This document shows, piece after piece, positions 49,601-63,633 of a DNA stretch of 64,000 nucleotides. Source of the DNA: Apostichopus japonicus (lineage: Eukaryota > Echinodermata > Holothuroidea > Aspidochirotida > Stichopodidae); NCBI RefSeq assembly GCF_037975245.1, contig NC_092578.1, forward strand, positions 3,910,001 through 3,974,000, given 5' to 3'. The first letter of the stretch is position 1; the number at the start of each line of letters is the position of its first letter. The notes below the pieces were generated by a model that saw only the letters and a program-made list of their open reading frames with translations, had not been told where the DNA came from and searched no databases. A program made the position numbers and the translations under genes.

Positions 49601-51612
49601 ACTCTGGTCACCGATTTCAGATCCCTGTTATCAAAAATCTACTCAGTATTTTACAGTAAGTGCATCAAGTGAAGAATTATGCGAGTTTTTTTTTTTTTTT
49701 TTTTAATCTTATGTCTTGATTCAATGTTGGTAAGAAAAAACAACTTAAGTTTAACATAATTTTTACCCCAATTTAAAATCTATGCTCAGCCCTACCCATG
49801 TGTCTGAGCTTCAGATATCCATTAAATTGTTTTCTTTTACATTTACAGGGATTCCTACCCGATGATTCTGGTGGCTAACAAAGTCGACTTAGATCATCAA
49901 AGGAAAGTCAAGTTGGAGGAAGGAGCAGATCTCGCAGCAGAAATGGGGGTAAGTAAATATTTCTTTACAATTTTAATCGCACGATCGACTTTATCCTACC
50001 TTTAATATTACAGTATGTATTCAATTCCATCGTGAATACCACCCTCTAAATTGAAATGGAAAGAAAGTAACCCACATATTTGGTCAATATTACCTTGTGG
50101 TGGAGCATTTACACTACTAAAGGTAGCTGTGGCAATATATATTCATTTATGTTTTTATAATCTTTTGATTGCTTAAGTGAATTCTTGTGAAATTCATTTT
50201 GTGTCAATAACAGTCATAAATGTGGTTTAACGTTCTTCTGTTGCACTCATCATGGCTGTATCTCACAGAGTTATACTTCCATAGATTCACTCTGTGGCTT
50301 GACCTTACGCATCTGTTTTCCTACTGTTATTGTCAATTCTTGCAACAAAATCTGTCAACATCAAGACAAACATCCAAGAAAAACATATTAATGTAAATGT
50401 CTATTTTTAACTTGATTACCGTTCATGAAGAAGTGTTTTGTAAAGGGAAAAGAATATACTGTACAGTATGGTGGGATTTGTGCAATGTTGTTTGTAAATG
50501 AAGACAACAAATCCATGCTTAACCCGTATTTTGATAAGTATTTAATTAAGTGTAACATCTGAAAGCATTTCTGAAATAGCTAATTAAGAGTTTCAATGAG
50601 TCACCTGAAATTTAGTGTCCAGAGTATATTAATTGCCAGTTATTTCTTTAGGTCAAGTCCTGTGAGTGACAGAGAGTCACTAAACTAGTTCAAATGGGGA
50701 AAAGAATGTTAGAAATGTTTCTACTTGATGAGTGGTATAGGGAAATATGCAAGCTGTGGTTTTCAATTTTGCTTTAGAAAAGGGGGGGAGGTGAGGAGAG
50801 GGGCAGAGGTAAGTTTACAATAAGAGTGTATGTGTATCTCATATTGGTTTTTGTTGTTGTTTTATATTTACAGGGTATTCCGTACATTGAAACCAGCGCA
50901 AAGGATCCTCCTCAGAACATTGATGCAGCTTTTCATGAAGTAGTACGAGTAATCAGGTACGGTGTGATTGTCATCAGACTGTCAGGAGAAGTTCCTTACT
51001 ACCCTTCATCCCTTCCAAGACCCCCTCCTTCTGCCCCCTCCACCCTGCAATCCCCTTAATGAAATGGAAATGTCCACGTAGCATTCTTTGGAGTGGTATG
51101 AGTCATTTGGTGTAACCTCTCGATTAAGAGTCTTCAACCTGATTATCAGGAAATACAACAGATTGCCATATCATGAAACATATACCACCCCTTCCCTTCC
51201 CCCCACGGCCCTTGCCCTCTCAACAGAGAGCAAAAAAAAGCCTTGTTCCAGTTATTCACTGGTATTTGAGTTCATTTGTTTGACCATCTCTACATAGTTA
51301 TCTCTCCTGCAAACCAGAATGACCAATATCTTGTTTTGCTATTAAAGGTTGTAATTAAGACAAGGGAGTTGTTTCTGTAGTGATCAGAGATGTTGTATAG
51401 CTGTTTTGGGGTCGTGAGTCAGCAAACCAGAGTTCATGGGCCAAGTATGTCGCACCTCTTATCATTTCTTTCATTCTATTAACATTACAAAAGTCTAATT
51501 TCTCTCTCTCCGTCTCTGGCTTCATGATAGGAGAACACCGATCGACAAGAAATTGAAGAAAAAGAGGAAATCACAGAAATCAAAGAAAGGACTGAAGTGT
51601 GTTGTACTGTGA
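37658..51612 (+). CDS. MRAS: Ras-related protein M-Ras (small GTPase)
   Basis: Five coding exons, 37658-37856, 44878-45031, 49849-49948, 50874-50956 and 51531-51612, give 205 aa (human 208). M-Ras is a membrane-anchored GTPase that signals to RAF via SHOC2-PP1C. Motifs: P-loop GDGGVGKS 22-29, switch [10 protein letters not shown] 44-52, DTAGQEE 69-75, NKVD 128-131, ETSAK 157-161. [14 protein letters not shown] and [12 protein letters not shown] match M-Ras rather than R-Ras, Ras or Rap. The tail is strongly lysine-rich and ends in CVVL, a CAAX box whose final leucine predicts geranylgeranylation. I chose the ATG at 37658 because it has A at -3 and matches the family N-terminus; an in-frame ATG at 37598 would add 20 atypical residues in a weak context. 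Intron 1 is 7 kb and contains a hAT-like element and a tandem repeat abutting exon 2. Confidence 0.97.
37961..38020. repeat. AT/GATA microsatellite
   Basis: Alternating TA dinucleotides with interspersed GATATA, about 60 bp, in MRAS intron 1. Confidence 0.9.
38726..39101. mobile_element. hAT-like miniature inverted-repeat element, 376 bp
   Basis: Inverted ends CAGGGATTCCCTGACT (left) and CAGGGTTTCCCTAACTT (reverse complement of right) match over most of 16 bp. They are flanked by 8-bp direct repeats TTGTACAG (38718-38725) and CTGTACAG (39102-39109), seven of eight identical. CAGGG-starting ends with 8-bp duplications are characteristic of the hAT superfamily. No transposase is present. It lies in MRAS intron 1. 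Confidence 0.8.
44475..44877 (+). repeat. Five-copy 82-bp tandem repeat abutting an MRAS splice acceptor
   Basis: Copies begin at 44475, 44558, 44640, 44721 and 44805 with GATGTAAACTTCTGAAGAAG, and each ends in a long T-rich run. The last copy's T-rich run (TTTTTTCCCCTTCTTTTTCG) is directly followed by the TAG acceptor of MRAS exon 2 (exon starts at 44878). The repeat therefore supplies the functional polypyrimidine tract and stacks several identical decoy tracts upstream. The long minus-strand frame across it (44453-44848) is a repeat artefact. Confidence 0.9.
45890..46350 (+). repeat. Degenerate tandem repeat in MRAS intron 2
   Basis: The phrase GTGACAGGGA(A/T)TTGAG(C/T)T and related GACAGGGACATAAGCTG recur four to five times at irregular spacing of about 80-110 bp, together with AACAATTCC/CACAATTCC blocks. 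Old, much-decayed tandem repeat. Confidence 0.5.
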
Positions 51613-55068: not shown

Positions 55069-58000
55069 TTATAATTCATCTTTAGTCTGAGAAGCTGTGG
55101 TGTTTTCTTCAATGAAAGCGCTTAAAGATGCCACCGTCCTTTCCCCGCCCTCGAATTTGATCAGGTTCTCTAAGTCTCCCCCTTTGACTAAGAATAAGGT
55201 GGGAAAGCCCTCTGCTTGTACCTCCATTGGCAGGTCGTTTGCAGTACCGTCGATCTTAGCGATGACGACGCTGTCCGAATCCTTGTACTTTTTACCGAGC
55301 TTCTTGTAAACGGGTTCCAACTTCTTACAGTGGCCGCACCAAGGCGCGTAAATCTCAAGGAGGACGTTCTTTTCTGTTTGCCTGACCTCCTTATCGAATG
55401 TGTTACCTACAATGATCCTGACAGGTCCATCGTTGTCCTTTGGTTTGGGCTGTGACTTTATAACAGGCTTCAGGTTACCTAACGAGGGAAAAGACAAAAG
55501 AATAAACGAGATGAGACAGATCGGCAGTGCGTAAACTTTACTGCCCACGAGCCAGGATATTCCATCGGGAGTGAACCCACGGCCCCCACCCTCTCCCACT
55601 TCATCGAATCAATGCTCAGACTGCATCAATGCTAGCTTGGACACGGGAGCTCAATGTTTATAAGATGAATTTATTCCCCACCTTCCCCCACTCCCCCCCC
55701 CCACTGGCAAGATCCAAAACTGTAGATAAATTTGCCAGCATCTGCGGCAATCAATTTTGGGGTCGAGCCTCATGGTTTACAAACCGTAGTGATAGATGTA
55801 ACAGTGTGTTCACTATCGGCCTTTCTTATGTTCCCTAACAGGTTATTACATTCCTGGGACTCGCCAGTTAACCTCTAGGGCGGCCTCAATTGTTTGTTTA
55901 TTTACAAATGCCATTTCCGGTTACCTTCATTGCTTCGTAACTTGCCAAACAATAAAACTTGCCAAACAAAATATAAACAAACAATGTAACACTATGAAAA
56001 TGATGATTCAAGAATTCTAGACAGTTTAACAACTAACCATCTTTGAAGTCCTGTAAGAATTCCCGGAGACCTTCGACAGAGAATTCATCGTCCGTGTCCA
56101 TGGCATACCTTCTCTTCTTGGTATCGTACAGACCAACGTTTATCTCGTTTCCGCTGTCGTCCAAACCGAGGTCGACCAGAAATTTGCCAAATTCATCCTC
56201 GTCGGCGATTGCAAAAGTGTAGTCCTTGTACTCAGGATCAGAGGCGACCTCTAGGATCCTGTGTCTCCAAAATTGTGTGTCTACAAATATATATTTAGAG
56301 AAAAAAAAAGGTGAATCATTGCAAAATACAAACAGCAGAACAGTTTTTGACACCGGGAAGCAATCATCGGAAGGACACGTTGACTATTAACGTTGGCCTT
56401 ATGGAGAGACATTTCTAGTTTTGAAGAACTTGTTTTAATAACTAGTTTATAATAATAGCTAATAATAGTTAATTACTGGTTTATAACTAGTTTAATAACT
56501 ATCGTTTTGAGCAAAATATGAAGCCAGTAATGTATGTTACATCATGAGAATGGATCTTTTACAAAAAGGACATCTCCCCATTTATGAGAATAACAATAGG
56601 GGTTAACCATATTTCTGTGGTTGCAAAGTGGGACACTGATTCCCGTGAAGAAAAATTCAGGGGATTTTGAAGAGGGCTGCACAGCTTTTCCCACAAAGTC
56701 ATGCGGCTAATAGGCCGCCATTTGATCCAATTTATGTGTTGAAAACGATTATATGATAATGATACAGCATGTGCACTTTTTTTTACATATCGTGAAATTT
56801 TTGTGTTGGCGGGAATGCAGGACAAGATATATTTGATTTACACCTGAAGGTCGGTGAACAGCAGATTTGGCGGTAATCGTTTAAGAAAACTTTTTTAAAA
56901 AATGGAAAATGGCAAAAAAAATTACGCCTAGAAGGGGGATTTGAACCAGTGACCTTTGGTTACAAGCCCAGCGTTCTATCAACTGAGCTACCCAGTCCTT
57001 AATTGGTGCCGATCCCTATATTTGCCATTTCTTTGCTGGGGCTGCCAGTCAGAAGGCCATGGTACTTTGCAAAACGTGTAACCAGTGATCCAACCCAGTT
57101 TCATTCGATAAAACCCACGAAGCAGCAGGGAAGGGATTTCATGAGAAATTGGGAAAAGTTGTAAAACTGGCAATTTTTTTGAAAATGTACGAAACAAATC
57201 TAGTTAAAATGGTAGCTTTGGCTCTTAGCCACCTTACCCCAAAAAACAAAGTTTCTCAAGGGACGACCCTTCCCCTTACACCTCTTGCCAGGACAGACGT
57301 AAGTCAGCATTTGTGCCTATCCCCCTCACCCCCCACCCCCCCCCATACAACCCCCCAGAAAAAACAAGAAATGGCATCTACAATAGATTAGAAAATTTTA
57401 CAACTATCATACAGATCCATCAGGGCTAGTACAAATACAGGTTACTATGCTAGAGTATGTGTGCAGGCTCACTACAACTTAGTTGTATAGATCTCTTACT
57501 CAAAATTGAAGCAGGCCTCCAAATTTGGTCTGTTTACTGGCTAAACGCTGGTGGATTTTCCCGTTTGCCAGTAGAAATAAAAGGCATTTTTCTGCCAGTG
57601 GACATTACAGAACATTAACACACGGTTAGTTGATTAACAATCGTCATACTGCCTTATTACCAGCAAATGTTATTGGGCTTAACTCAAAAAGCCAATAGAG
57701 CAACTGATGTGTCTTGTAATTCAGGAAAATGTTACTGGAAACTTGATTTGAATACTTTTGTTGCCAAAATTTCTAGGCCCGCTGAATGTATCTCTGATAT
57801 GTATCGCTGAATCTAAGTATGAGAGAAAGCTACGCAGCTTGGGTGAGGATTGACCAAAGGCAAATCACCACTCTAAAACCGATTGTTACTTGTGGTCATT
57901 ACCAGGGCAACAATGGTCCTTACCTTTCCTGTAGTCATGTGACCAATCTACGGTATAGAAGACCATCACATTGGTAGTATTTTTGTACCTGGTGCCCAAG

Positions 58001-61000
58001 TTTTGCTGAGTCAATTGCCCCACCAGAGGTCGGTTGTGTTTGAGATAAAACGCCGTTAGGTCATCCTGCGTGGCATCGGCCTGGAAGAATGGAACAAAAG
58101 GGATCTGGCGTTTAGGGACGACCAACGGAACTTACCGTCTTTATGATCCAAACTCCAATCCAATCCGTAGAATACAATAACCACCGCCTGACCACGAAAC
58201 CACCGCTCAAACACCGAGTCGATCATCTGCCCCACCAGCGGTACATCGTGTCTTTGCAGCCAGACCAGCAGGGTATCGAAGGTAACATTGACCTTCTAAA
58301 AGCAGGAAAGAGCAGATATTCTCAGCGGACACTCAAATCACGGTTAGCTGGCCCGTTGACATTCATCCATATTTTGAAGGCTACTACTAACTGGTAGACA
58401 GATGTCAATCATACGAGTTGTGTTTTGAAAATTTATAATCTAATCAGTTGGCTCGTGAGCCCAAAAATTGTCGACAGTTTTGGAGATCATTTTTGCTATT
58501 CCCCCGTTTTTTTTTTGGCGTTTTTCTTGAAACAGAGAATGACAATCCAGACAAAATATAATCCTGATCATTGATTTACAAATTAACCCTTCGAAATCAG
58601 TTTCCAAATGTTCATATAAATAATGCACCTGACGTATGTCTGATAGCAAAACACTTGGGTTATTAATGCTAATAAAATGCCAACAAATGGACTGCCATGT
58701 TTAGATTCAAATCAGATCGATCAGACTTTTCATGAACTTGATAAATTTGTTAATGGACCAGTCACCAACCATGAAAAAGCAAACCGCTCTGGCGCCATAC
58801 TCTCTGTTAGCTCAACCGCTTGACCGCCGAAAAACCCAGAGGGGGGACGATGACCGATGAAGGAGCAGCGAAGGAAGTGGTGTTCAAGTAGCAGTGGTTT
58901 TTGTGTGAGGGTAGCAGGGGATGGATAACAAAAGAAAAGTATATATATATATTTGCAACATTTTATTCTTATGCAAAAGTTCCCTCAAGATAAACAGAAG
59001 GAGAACGCGATTGCTAAACGAATCAAGTGCGAAATGAAGATTTTGCGAAATGGGAAGCAAAGACCAGATGTTAAACGTGTAGAAATTTGCTTGTAAGCAG
59101 AAATATCGGACATGCCGTTCTCATTCTTTGATTAAACGACAGAGGCAAACAACTTTGAAAACAGTGCACTTTTGCACAATTTCTAACTTTCACAAATTTA
59201 AAAGGGATATATTTTCGATGGCAGACGATACAACACTTGTTATAAAGAGAAAGATATACATCACTGTTAGTTGAAAACCCATCTTAATATCTTAATTATA
59301 ATCATCATAGTCATAGCGATTTATTATGCGCACGTACGTAACCGCCCTGCGGGTGCTCAAGGCGAAAAGAAAAGGAAAAACTATGGTAAAAGAAAAGAAA
59401 ATATCTTGTTCGTAACTTCGTAGAGAGATATGGTCGATTGAAATGTAACCTATTCTGATACTAGTCTAAACCCTGGATTCTTCCAAGAAGTGCATCAGAG
59501 TAGGTAGTCTATGACGTCATCACAGCAAATGATCTTCAAAAAGTTTTACTTTCCTATTTATAATCTTCTTGATGATTTTCCTTGAAATATGATACTGTTA
59601 CAATATTTGCACATAGTTGTCAATGTTCTCTGTATTTAGAATTTCATCAACATATTTATTATCCTCTCTGAATCAGTGAATTAATTACTATAAAGGGAAA
59701 AAAAAAAAAAAAAAAAGTGTTCACCTGAATTGTTGTGATGAAGTCATTCGCTCAAATTCGAAAAAAGAGAAATATAAATGCTTCTAAGATGTGGTTTGAC
59801 CGAATGGTTTGACCTAATGTTCTCACCAAACACAGTATATTACAGCACTTCTACTACTATTCTCTAACGCTGTAAAACACTGTGACGACTTAACTATAGA
59901 CAATTCATATACCAACATGTCTTTCTTTTGATGTAACTGTACACTGTTTAGCAGAAATGTTGCAGCACATTCTGACTAGCTGTCCTCCCTTAGTTTTATG
60001 TTATATTACATACAGGGATGTGCCCACACTGGGCAGCACCGGGCGGCTGCGCCCAGCAGTTCTGAATGCCGCCCAGCACAAACAGTATTTTAAACATTTC
60101 CACCCGGCACTTGTTTGATGATAACTTTTTTTTTTTACCATAACCAAAATCTGGGAGAATACATGGCACAGAATAGGAAACAAAGCACCACCTAACAAAG
60201 CACCACCTAGGAAACAAAGCACCACTTCATGTGCAAAATTTGTCCAGTGGGAAAGGGTGTACCCCACCCATGAGATCCCTCTCCCAGGGTGTGGATCGCA
60301 CTACCGCACAATCTGCCCGGCACTCAAATATTCTTGAGCACATCCCTGTATATATATAATATTTAACTTCCATGGGTCATCGTTAAACCTGATATTGAAC
60401 AAGTATATATGACACTGTTTGATAAACGATAAAGCATCACAACACAATGCACACACAAGAATGATGTTAATTGCTGCACCCATTCACCGAGAAAACTGCA
60501 GTTTCTATGAATAAACCCATGATTTACTTCTTACCTCATCAAAGACAAAGCGGCCTGGTTCGTATTTACTGTGGTACCTCTTGGAATGAAAGAGAACAAT
60601 GTTGCTGGTAGATACTTCATAGAGCTTGCGAGCTTCTTCCAGGAAGGTATAACCGAACCGATACTCCTCGTTTATTGCGTTAGCTGTGGCATGTAGAGAG
60701 CAAGAAAAGGTGAAAAAAGAGCAACCAAAACCTAACTTCGTCGATATCTATGGTTGAAAACGGGGCTTAAGTTGAGTAAACTATTCAAGATCGGAACCAA
60801 AATCTTACTCAATATTTCAAAACTCTGAATAACATACTTGATACTTCAAACTCGGTACTCGAACCTGTTTTCGAAAATGAGTACTCAGTGTTGACTAGTA
60901 CTTAGGATTTCTAACATGATAGGGGTCATTTTTGGCTCATTATTATTTTGTTCAAAACTCAAGACTTTAATACTTAGTACTATTTAAGTATCCGTTCAAA

Positions 61001-63633
61001 TACATATTATTAAGTACTCATGATATGTCAATGCTAATAATACTCATTAATGAATACTCAATATGTAAAAGTAAAATGTAGAATTCATTTACTTGTTATT
61101 AAATACAAAACACTACAATGTCATTTACTACTCATTACTACTCATAGCTTACGACTACTCATTACTCATAATTACTCATTGCTAAAAATTTAGAATTAAT
61201 TTACTTGTTATTAAATACAAAACACTAAAAAGTCATTACTACTCATTACTACTCATAGCTTACGACTATTCATTACTCATAATTACTCAATACTCGTAAT
61301 TACTCATTAATACTAAACACACCAGACTGGTGCCTGTCTGTCTCTCAAGGAGGAATGACATCCTACAGGAACTTACCCATCGTTCCTTATAATTGGATTT
61401 CAAAGCAAGACTAGCTACGATGAGAAGTACGACGTATATTAAGTATATATCTCACCGGTATCTACGTATAACTGGTACATGGGATCATCTTCTCCCGAAA
61501 AGAATCCGACCACAGAGAGATCATCCTGATAATCTATGTAATCCTTTACTTCCTTCATGGTTGTAAGTTCAACTGATGTTGGCTTGGCCATCTGTCTCAT
61601 GTACTTAGCGATACCTGTCGGAAAAAAAAAATAATAACCACGGTCAAGTTTTCGGTTGGATCTTTCTTTGTGAAAAGTGACTTAGGACTTAGCAGCATCA
61701 CTCTAAGGTAAAAAGGAAACTTTTATTATAATTTCAGGGATGAGACTGAGACGGGGAAAAAAAATCTGAAATTTATGGATCGCCGTCCTGGGGGAGAGGT
61801 TTAAGGAGAGGGGTGTCCCCCTCCCCTTTAGAAATTTTTTGTCAGGTAAGGAGGGCTTAGATGCAAAATGGTGGACTCTAGATGGAATCTATCACATCAC
61901 GTAACTCGCCAAAAAAGTGTGGAATTTCTGCTTGTATAATTTATCCATTAGCTTTTTTGAACCAAAAAAAGGCTTTTTTGCTTGCTTTGTGCTACTTTAT
62001 TCCACCACTGGTCAAATTCGGTGTTCCTTCCCTTCACAGTCCAGCATGTTCGGCCCCAAAAAAATAAATAAATAAATAAATAAATAAAAAAATATAAAAA
62101 AATAATAAAAAACGCGAATTACGAGAAAAAACGCGAAAATGAAAAAAAAAAAAATCGGAAACCAGCGTTTCCGCGGAAGAGTCTCATGCCTGGAATTTAG
62201 AATATGTATATCGTAAAGGACAAAGGAGACGGTGATATCCATCTCAGAAGGCCGTGTACCTGCATATTCACTCAAACTACTGGATAATGAAAGCCACGGT
62301 AATTAGCACCATGCTTCAAACAAAAGAGAACTATGCGATAGAAGCCAGGTCTCAACAAAATTTTTAATTCGTGCCTCCGGGTCATGTGAAACTGCATGTC
62401 CCAAAGAGAAAACATGCTATTATGACTATCCCAAAATATCAATCACAGATATGAAGGGTTTAGTAAATTATTTAAGTGTTTAATCATAACCATCTAGATT
62501 TATAAACAAAAATTTTTAAAAAATGCAAGGTTTCTTCAGAAGATTCACACAAAGCAGCACTAACAGGAATATGGATGTTCTGAAAAGGTATAACTTTGGA
62601 TGATAATACCTCCCTCAAATGGATATGTATACAGTGTAATGGGTGCCCTGTGGGATATACCAACAGGGCATAGCACCAACTGGGTATAGCACCAACTGGG
62701 CATAGCACCAACTGGGCATAGCACCAACTGTGTGTTAAAGTACTACAGACACCTAGCCAATCTGCCCCATATTCAGTACATTAATTGTGTGTGATATTCT
62801 CATTCAAAATCTGTTGAACTTTTTTGAAAATCTCTTTTCATGTCTAAGATATACACATTTGAAATTTTGATAAATCTGGGAAACTCATTAAATATGTGCA
62901 AACTATGACGTGGTGTGTTTCGTTCATCAAAATTTAGTTTAGGCTTAATAAGCTAACCCCTAATTATACAAGCCCACATATATCATTGAATAATGCGATG
63001 TTCCTCTTTTCAAAGAAGACAAAATATTTAAAAAAATGCTTTTGGCCACAATCCTGGGGTCAGTGTCCTTGAAACGATAAAGTTGTAAAACCAAAGGGAT
63101 AACATAACAGAAAATTAGGCAGTCACTCCCTTTACATCATAAATGTGCATAGTTAGCTAATGTTTATTCGAAAATCAAACTAGAATTAAGGAAAGAGTTG
63201 TTAAATGGTCAATCTTTGATGGATTTTCATGGACGTTGCATCTATTTTCATGATTTCTAATGCTTATTAGGATGATTAGGGCAATGATGTTCATAGGCAT
63301 CCATAGAACTTTTAAGCTTAACGATAGAAAATAGTCGTGAAAGAGTCGCAGAGACCCAAGAGAGGGCGCTATTTATGACTTACAAAGCAAAATTCAAAAG
63401 TTACTGGAGGAGTCATTATCTATTTACCGACAGCATCCCGTGGTCCTTCGTACTCATATTTGACACCATACCGCATGACGAACATGGTAGGATAACCAGT
63501 GACTTGAAACCTCTTGACTAGGTCGCCTTGGTGAACTGCATCTACGATAGCTATAACAATTGGTGGATCCTCCTTCACCAGCTCCTTTGCTGCTTTCTGC
63601 AGTTCAGGGCCTAGCTTTTTGCAATGGCCACAC
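55069..63633 (-). CDS. PDIA4: Protein disulfide-isomerase A4 (ERp72), C-terminal part
   Basis: Coding exons in transcription order: 63428-63633, 61456-61614, 60535-60683, then either 58136-58295 or 57924-58080, then 56038-56280 and 55069-55478. They encode about 440 residues; the signal peptide and first thioredoxin domain lie beyond the right edge. PDIA4 forms and isomerises disulfides in the ER lumen. The exon at 63428 begins inside the CGHC active site of the second thioredoxin domain (CGHCKKLGPELQKAAKEL, cis-proline in GYPTMF). The next exons are the redox-inactive b and b' domains. The last exon carries the a' domain (APWCGHCKKLEPVY) and ends in KDEL, the ER-retrieval signal. KPVIKSQP before a' and the domain order identify PDIA4 rather than PDIA1 or PDIA3. 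The longer open frame at the start of the last exon (to 55599) reads through the acceptor into intron and is not coding. Confidence 0.96.
56926..57000 (-). mobile_element. tRNA-like sequence (Thr-UGU-like), SINE relic or tRNA pseudogene
   Basis: Minus strand: TAGCTCAGTTGATAG (A-box) and GGTTCAAATCC (perfect B-box) at tRNA spacing, with an anticodon-loop-like CTTGTAA (TGT). A run of eight T follows a few bases later, usable as a polymerase III terminator. Acceptor, anticodon and T stems pair poorly (about 1-3 of 7, 3 of 5 and 2 of 5), so I do not call a functional tRNA. It lies in the PDIA4 intron between exon A and 56280. Confidence 0.55.
57924..58080 (-). CDS. PDIA4: PDIA4 alternative exon A (b' domain), canonical member of the pair
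   Basis: A 157-nt exon encoding 52 residues plus one base (ATQDDL..., PLVGQL, VMVFYTVDWSHDYRK) that continues into DTQFWRHRILEV of the next exon, as in vertebrate PDIA4. Only 55 nt of intron (58081-58135) separate it from exon B. B followed by A reaches a TGA within seven codons; skipping both reaches a TAG within ten codons of the next exon. Confidence 0.9.
58136..58295 (-). CDS. PDIA4: PDIA4 alternative exon B (b' domain), upstream member of a mutually exclusive pair
   Basis: This 160-nt exon runs from acceptor TTTTAG to donor GTAAGT and encodes 53 residues plus one base. Its product contains PLVGQM and VIVFYGLDWSLDHKD, aligning along its whole length with exon A (about 17 of 52 positions identical). 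It enters in phase 0 and leaves in phase 1, exactly like exon A. It has no stops and its splice sites are strong, so it looks functional rather than decayed. Vertebrate PDIA4 matches exon A better (TQD.., VDxSxDYR), so B is the derived or specialised version. Confidence 0.85.
59296..59365 (-). mobile_element. LINE/SINE 3'-tail relic
   Basis: Read on the minus strand: CGCCTTGAGCACCCGCAGGG, then GCGCATAATAAATCGCTATG and ATTAT-rich sequence. This resembles CR1/L2-type 3' ends. No coding part remains. Confidence 0.35.
60013..60348. mobile_element. hAT-like miniature element, 336 bp
   Basis: Begins CAGGGATGTGC and ends with its perfect inverse GCACATCCCTG. The interior has a GC-rich GGGCAGCACCGGGCGG block. 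The flanking octamers (ATTACATA and TATATATA) agree at only five positions, so the duplication is eroded or the end is off by a base or two. A second copy starts at 63663. Confidence 0.65.
61068..61293 (+). repeat. Tandem duplication of a TACTCAT-rich 112-bp block
   Basis: Two adjacent copies (about 61068-61181 and 61182-61293) share ACTTGTTATTAAATACAAAA and a run of TACTCAT-like heptamers. Simpler TACTCAA/TACTTAG repeats extend on both sides (about 60820-61310). It lies in a PDIA4 intron. Confidence 0.8.
62666..62729 (+). repeat. Short tandem repeat, 4 x 16 bp
   Basis: Four copies of GGGCATAGCACCAACT with one substitution (GGGTATAGC in the second). PDIA4 intron. Confidence 0.95.

Follow-up and report, generated by a model that had tools for sequence, protein, structure and literature searches.

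Exon 8 of the sea cucumber PDIA4 gene as a probable old tandem duplicate used as two mutually exclusive exons

The window that we analysed is a stretch of 64,000 nt from Apostichopus japonicus (contig NC_092578.1, positions 3910001-3974000; this contig is labelled C18 in Table 1). A PDIA4/ERp72 gene is encoded on its minus strand, and the gene is complete at 69772-55069, where positions above 64000 fall beyond the window. Conceptual splicing gave ten coding exons plus one alternative exon, and the parts that lie inside the window are collected in Table 1. The translation carries three CGHC motifs and ends in KDEL; PF00085 matches the second and third of these domains inside the window and the first just outside it. 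The best PDB match of the b-b′ part is ERp72, entry 3ec3 (chain 3ec3_A), a chain which we take to be from rat. The gene identity given in the original prediction is thus confirmed by the three CGHC domains, the b and b′ domains, the KDEL signal and the top PDB match. The same layout of three CGHC domains, b, b′ and an endoplasmic reticulum (ER) retention signal is found in rat ERp72 (3ec3) and in human PDIA4/ERp72 as described in passages of PMC3500226.

Table 1. PDIA4 exons inside the window and the short intron between the two forms of exon 8
Feature	Positions in window	Strand	Observations and basis
PDIA4 exon 5, part of second CGHC domain	63428..63633	-	frame open in both isoforms; phase 2 in, 1 out; PF00085 at C18:3973435-3973635
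PDIA4 exon 6	61456..61614	-	conceptual splicing
PDIA4 exon 7, b domain, shared upstream exon	60535..60683	-	exit phase 0; donor TGAG|gtaaga; aligns to rat ERp72 3ec3_A
Exon 8B, alternative, 160 nt, 53 complete codons, b end and b′ start	58136..58295	-	splicing, genome search, alignments, simulation
Intron between 8B and 8A, 55 nt	58081..58135	-	GT...AG; candidate branch CTAAA, branch A at nt 24; 18 pyrimidines in 20-nt tract
Exon 8A, alternative, 157 nt, 52 complete codons, more ERp72-like copy	57924..58080	-	splicing, genome search, alignments
PDIA4 exon 9, remaining b′, shared downstream exon	56038..56280	-	entry phase 1; weak acceptor, rank 203/843 under matrix
PDIA4 exon 10, third CGHC domain, KDEL and stop	55069..55478	-	PF00085, conceptual splicing

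Exons 8B and 8A are adjacent, homologous and similar in length, and both are entered in phase 0 and left in phase 1, as expected of tandem-duplicated exclusive exons. The boundaries and phases first assigned to the two exons, and the intron of 55 nt between them, were all reproduced. When spliced conceptually, an mRNA with 8B only stays open and encodes 634 residues, and one with 8A only stays open and encodes 633. In contrast, joining 8B to 8A introduces a TGA in 8A, at the seventh codon if the junction codon is counted and 137 nt before the end of 8A, and skipping both exons leads to a TAG in exon 9, 213 nt before the end of that exon; the original prediction had called both stops correctly. 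Each exon alone is therefore productive while both or neither are unproductive, and by this frame logic a productive mRNA has to contain exactly one of the two. Tandem exons that are spliced in a mutually exclusive manner are well known in general. A stop codon that lies far enough before the next exon junction usually exposes an mRNA to nonsense-mediated decay, and by that rule the stops created by double inclusion and by double skipping are both sufficiently distant.

The kinship of the two exons, proposed at about one third identity, is borne out by the alignment of their peptides, in which 17 of 52 residues are identical (33%) with no internal gap; the local BLOSUM62 score is 85, and none of 5000 shuffles scored above 51. 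In a six-frame search of the genome (671.6 Mb) with E values up to 10, each exon peptide retrieved itself and its twin alone, the twin matches having E values of 0.004 and 0.009. Two and three first-look candidates were scored for the 8B and 8A peptides, respectively, and no third copy or source gene elsewhere was found among them. These data support a tandem exon duplication as the origin of the pair. An assembly artefact or a recent duplicate was ruled out on the residue identity of 33% and on the third codon positions, which agree at 17/52 sites.

As to the age of the duplication, we counted by hand, in a MAFFT alignment, the columns with two states, each of them found in two of the four sequences 8A, 8B, rat PDIA4 and human PDIA3 (the row for human PDI, which is unreliable there, was left out). 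Three columns unite 8A with 8B, one unites 8A with rat, and none unites 8B with rat, a count that points, if weakly, to a duplication that postdates the split between echinoderms and vertebrates. Compared with human PDIA3, the 8A peptide scores no better than shuffled sequences (457/2000 reach its score), and the 8B peptide gives a weak signal (24/2000). No paired exon was confirmed among 134 pattern stretches from prokaryote contigs or among 26 such stretches from viral contigs, which is expected because this is an animal gene.

Several observations argue that the B copy has been under constraint. The b-b′ unit matches rat ERp72 with either exon in place (142.5 bits and E of 1e-40 with 8A, 132.1 bits and E of 2e-37 with 8B), and the Thioredoxin_6 match falls by only 4.6 bits, from 66.3 with 8A to 61.7 with 8B. 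On the opposing side, both exons taken singly stay below the Pfam cut-off of 27 bits (14.5 for 8B and 20.1 for 8A), and the NCBIfam search returned no match for 8B and a weak one for 8A. The alignment score of 66 between 8B alone and rat ERp72 was reached in 0/2000 shuffles. Identity between the two exons at codon positions 1, 2, and 3 is 28/52, 27/52, and 17/52, a modest difference between positions 1 and 2 combined and position 3 (Fisher p = 0.018). We also simulated neutral decay, starting from an A-like exon and placing all divergence on one branch. At a third-position identity of ~0.30, 0/4000 simulated exons remained open with at least 17 identical residues, as against 1/4000 at ~0.41 and 38/4000 at ~0.52; the observed value is 0.33. 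Because neutral decay fails to yield 8B at the observed third-position divergence, constraint on this exon is supported.

These results bear on the idea that 8B is seldom or never used and is decaying as a redundant copy, recent loss of use included. The rat residues are matched at 12/41 positions by 8B and at 18/41 by 8A, so that 8B is the faster diverging copy, as such decay would predict. Yet its frame, its phases, both of its splice sites and its similarity to ERp72 have all survived at a divergence that brings third positions close to saturation, and the neutral simulations do not reproduce it. We therefore regard a decaying 8B as unlikely, its most compatible form being one in which use was lost recently. 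Faster divergence of 8B is also compatible with a weaker constraint.

A different role for 8B would be that of a regulatory switch, in which an mRNA carrying both 8B and 8A is unproductive and so reduces the amount of PDIA4 made, the protein with 8B being itself of little weight. The early stop upon double inclusion, well ahead of the next junction, is what such a switch would need. However, 8B is productive when used alone, aligns to 8A without gaps and has kept ERp72-like residues, all of which would be needless in a pure poison exon, and we consider this role improbable.

Splice sites and branch points were scored with hand-built matrices based on vertebrate frequencies, with no training on this species. 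On the minus strand between 55000 and 70000, the donor of 8A ranks first and that of 8B second among 923 GTs, and the acceptors of 8A and 8B rank 2 and 11 among 843 AGs. The possibility of U12-type splicing, or of an incompatibility between U2 and U12 sites, was ruled out, as the donors are gtaagt and gtaagg, the acceptors are AG, and no donor resembles the U12 consensus. Within the 55-nt intron, the top branch candidate, CTAAA, has its branch A 31 nt before the intron end and is followed by the pyrimidine tract. The predicted distance from donor to branch is 23 nt, counted from the first intron base, close to the ~25 nt proposed originally. The branch-point consensus is yUnAy, and CTAAA is an imperfect fit because its final base is A.

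The intron is also shorter than every other intron estimated here. The remaining nine PDIA4 introns measure 559-2239 nt, and the smallest of 73 (67 + 6) introns estimated between adjacent myosin and kinesin matches is 126 nt. Two gaps inside such matches measure 96 and 366 nt. The estimates cover 70/70 myosin rows and 113/134 kinesin rows, with the remaining 21 rows added and compared with 12 hand-picked neighbouring rows; sizes were estimated from match ends, and hidden introns within matches were checked in 21/204 rows only.

Could so short an intron keep 8B and 8A from being joined? In alpha-tropomyosin, the branch point has been mapped experimentally and is located a long way upstream of the exon, whereas in PDIA4 it is a predicted one inside an intron that measures 55 nt in all; the two genes are unrelated. 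They are alike in having adjacent alternative exons with a donor-branch distance that bears on their joining (PMC6692369). The link that had been drawn between a short distance and exclusive choice in tropomyosin agrees with passages of the same paper, which put the minimal 5′SS-branch distance for efficient assembly at about 50 nt, name alpha-tropomyosin, and cite a distance of 35 nt that abolished assembly on one substrate (PMC6692369). On the other hand, a human HNRNPH1 intron of 56 nt is described in PMC8363638 as being spliced with the help of SPF45. It resembles the PDIA4 intron in length (56 versus 55 nt) and in donor-branch distance (27 versus a predicted 23 nt), and differs from it in having a truncated pyrimidine tract, where that of PDIA4 is ~20 nt; a longer tract moved splicing of the HNRNPH1 intron towards SPF45 independence (PMC8363638). 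Since that human intron is spliced at 27 nt, distance alone is no proof of a block. Steric enforcement of exclusivity by the 55-nt intron is thus plausible, and we place the chances of it at about even.

A serious alternative, to which we give somewhat less than an even chance, is that the exons are exclusive with no steric block. The 55-nt intron would then be spliceable, nonsense-mediated decay alone would clear the 8B-8A product, and a regulator would pick the exon. The precedent of HNRNPH1 in human cells (PMC8363638), the good splice sites on both exons, and a frame logic that is enough by itself for exclusivity at the protein level all speak for it, and the spacing limits of ~50 nt and 35 nt (PMC6692369) speak against it, as does the fact that 55 nt is below every intron estimate from PDIA4, myosin and kinesin. 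This alternative is a variant of the reading that we prefer and is compatible with the first half of it.

That preferred reading is that exon 8 of PDIA4 underwent an old tandem duplication and now exists as two exons of mutually exclusive use. We hold it to be likely as a whole, and the architecture of the gene makes exclusive use of the exons very likely. In splicing, exon 7 would be joined to 8B and then to exon 9, or to 8A and then to exon 9; both choices keep the frame through KDEL. The 55-nt intron, with its predicted donor-branch distance of 23 nt, would disfavour the joining of 8B to 8A, and any leaked double-inclusion mRNA would be removed by decay as a backstop. Exon 8B would accordingly be expected to appear in RNA and presumably to be conserved, and the two proteins would be unlike each other where b meets b′ and at the beginning of b′, and hence in the partners or clients that they bind.

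In alignments to rat ERp72, the segment encoded by 8A or 8B runs from the last part of b into the first part of b′, and we assume the corresponding folds for it. The original prediction leaned on b′ as the main substrate-binding region in PDIs. This holds for human PDI, whose principal client site lies in b′ with a pocket that includes F240, F249, and F304, but it does not extend to ERp57, the b′ of which is described in the same passages as being without that pocket (PMC7763558). Because of ERp57, we can only infer that the b′ client site carries over to PDIA4. In a MAFFT alignment of five proteins, the human PDI row was plainly misaligned, and pairwise alignments agree on F240 only: it pairs with Leu in 8A and with Met in 8B, the rat row being unreliable at that position. 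F249 falls within the exchanged segment with an unstable alignment partner, and F304 lies farther along the domain, where no sound alignment was obtained. In composition, 8B encodes a more hydrophobic and more acidic peptide than 8A does (GRAVY 0.16 and charge -2.1, versus -0.82 and +1.0), and altered partner or client binding between the isoforms is a reasonable expectation. More tentatively, PDIA4 may yield two ER oxidoreductases that have all three catalytic domains in common and are distinguished only by a face at the b′ start, swapped through exclusive splicing enforced by the 55-nt intron. This would be a client-specificity switch in the PDI family that selection has maintained ever since the exon was duplicated in the echinoderm lineage, and its use might depend on tissue or ER stress.

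PDI specificity is usually framed as a matter of separate genes. If the preferred reading is true, a single PDIA4 gene would give two enzymes whose surfaces are not the same in one domain outside the catalytic ones, and nature would have swapped 52-53 residues at the b′ start with three catalytic domains unchanged, which would be a ready-made test of the role of b′ in ERp72. The 55-nt intron would likewise offer a natural case in which to see how firmly the limit on donor-branch spacing holds beyond mammals.

The open-licence literature that we searched, as far as its passages go, held no report of a mutually exclusive exon pair in PDIA4, sea cucumber included, in agreement with the original prediction, which knew of no described case. 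The human PDIA4 passages of PMC3500226 mention no splice variants, those mentioned there belonging to other PDI genes, and in the passages concerned PMC9830730 and PMC8945230 use “mutually exclusive exons” as the name of one type of splicing event, with no description of the PDIA4 pair. Papers that contain both this phrase and PDIA4 likewise use the phrase for an event type, in the passages concerned, and bring in PDIA4 in a different context. The nearest parallel comes from passages of PMC5589949, in which exon 10 of the oyster alternative oxidase is duplicated in tandem, giving two variants of a stress-related enzyme. Both are tandem exon duplications in a marine invertebrate, and in the oyster, too, one copy diverges faster, there between species. 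The oyster exons differ in being terminal, and one mRNA holds both of them through an alternative 3′ splice site (PMC5589949), whereas the PDIA4 exons are internal and their joint inclusion breaks the frame. With regard to pairing of the docking and selector type, 20 inverted pairs were listed when 56281-60534 was scanned for repeats, and many of these pairs are rich in A/T.

The lysine and arginine of ERp57 that contact calnexin and calreticulin, K274 and R282 according to PMC7763558, have their equivalents in the twin exons and the common exon downstream (Table). As read from the alignments, both PDIA4 isoforms, A (containing exon 8A) and B (containing exon 8B), carry Lys and Arg opposite these residues, with the ERp57 numbering obtained via the 3f8u-7qng offset and gaps placed differently in the alignment of isoform B. 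Rat ERp72, aligned to isoform A, has Thr and Lys at the same positions. The twin exons each supply one possible N-glycosylation sequon, and the sites differ: N398 (NTT) in isoform A, from exon 8A (57924-58080), and N367 (NVT) in isoform B, from exon 8B (58136-58295).

The acceptor of exon 9 (window 56280), the exon common to both isoforms, is weak, ranking 203 of 843 minus-strand AGs (positions 55000-70000) with a hand-set matrix that is based on vertebrate frequencies and is not species-trained. Its pyrimidine tract is replaced by an A/T-rich stretch.

The tRNA-like stretch in the intron preceding exon 9 is probably a tRNA-derived SINE; it has at least 39 further matches genome-wide at 81-92% identity, among 40 of 78 candidates scored, the self-match being one of the 40. 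ARAGORN called no tRNA genes in the window. Upstream of exon 8B, a repeat scan found inverted ends that are 90% complementary and separated by 308 nt, a MITE-like arrangement; similar letters were seen again, by eye, near window 63660. The putative Ras-like GTPase gene is convergent with the 3′ end of PDIA4.

Table. Features in and around the PDIA4 gene
Feature	Window position	Strand	Location	Basis or class
ERp57 K274/R282-equivalent positions			Final codons of exons 8A and 8B, plus exon 9	Alignments
Inverted 20-nt ends	60007-60354		Intron 5′ of exon 8B	MITE-like
tRNA-like stretch	56925-56998	Minus	Intron separating exons 8A and 9	
Small Ras-like GTPase, coding segments	~49840-50980	Plus		By eye
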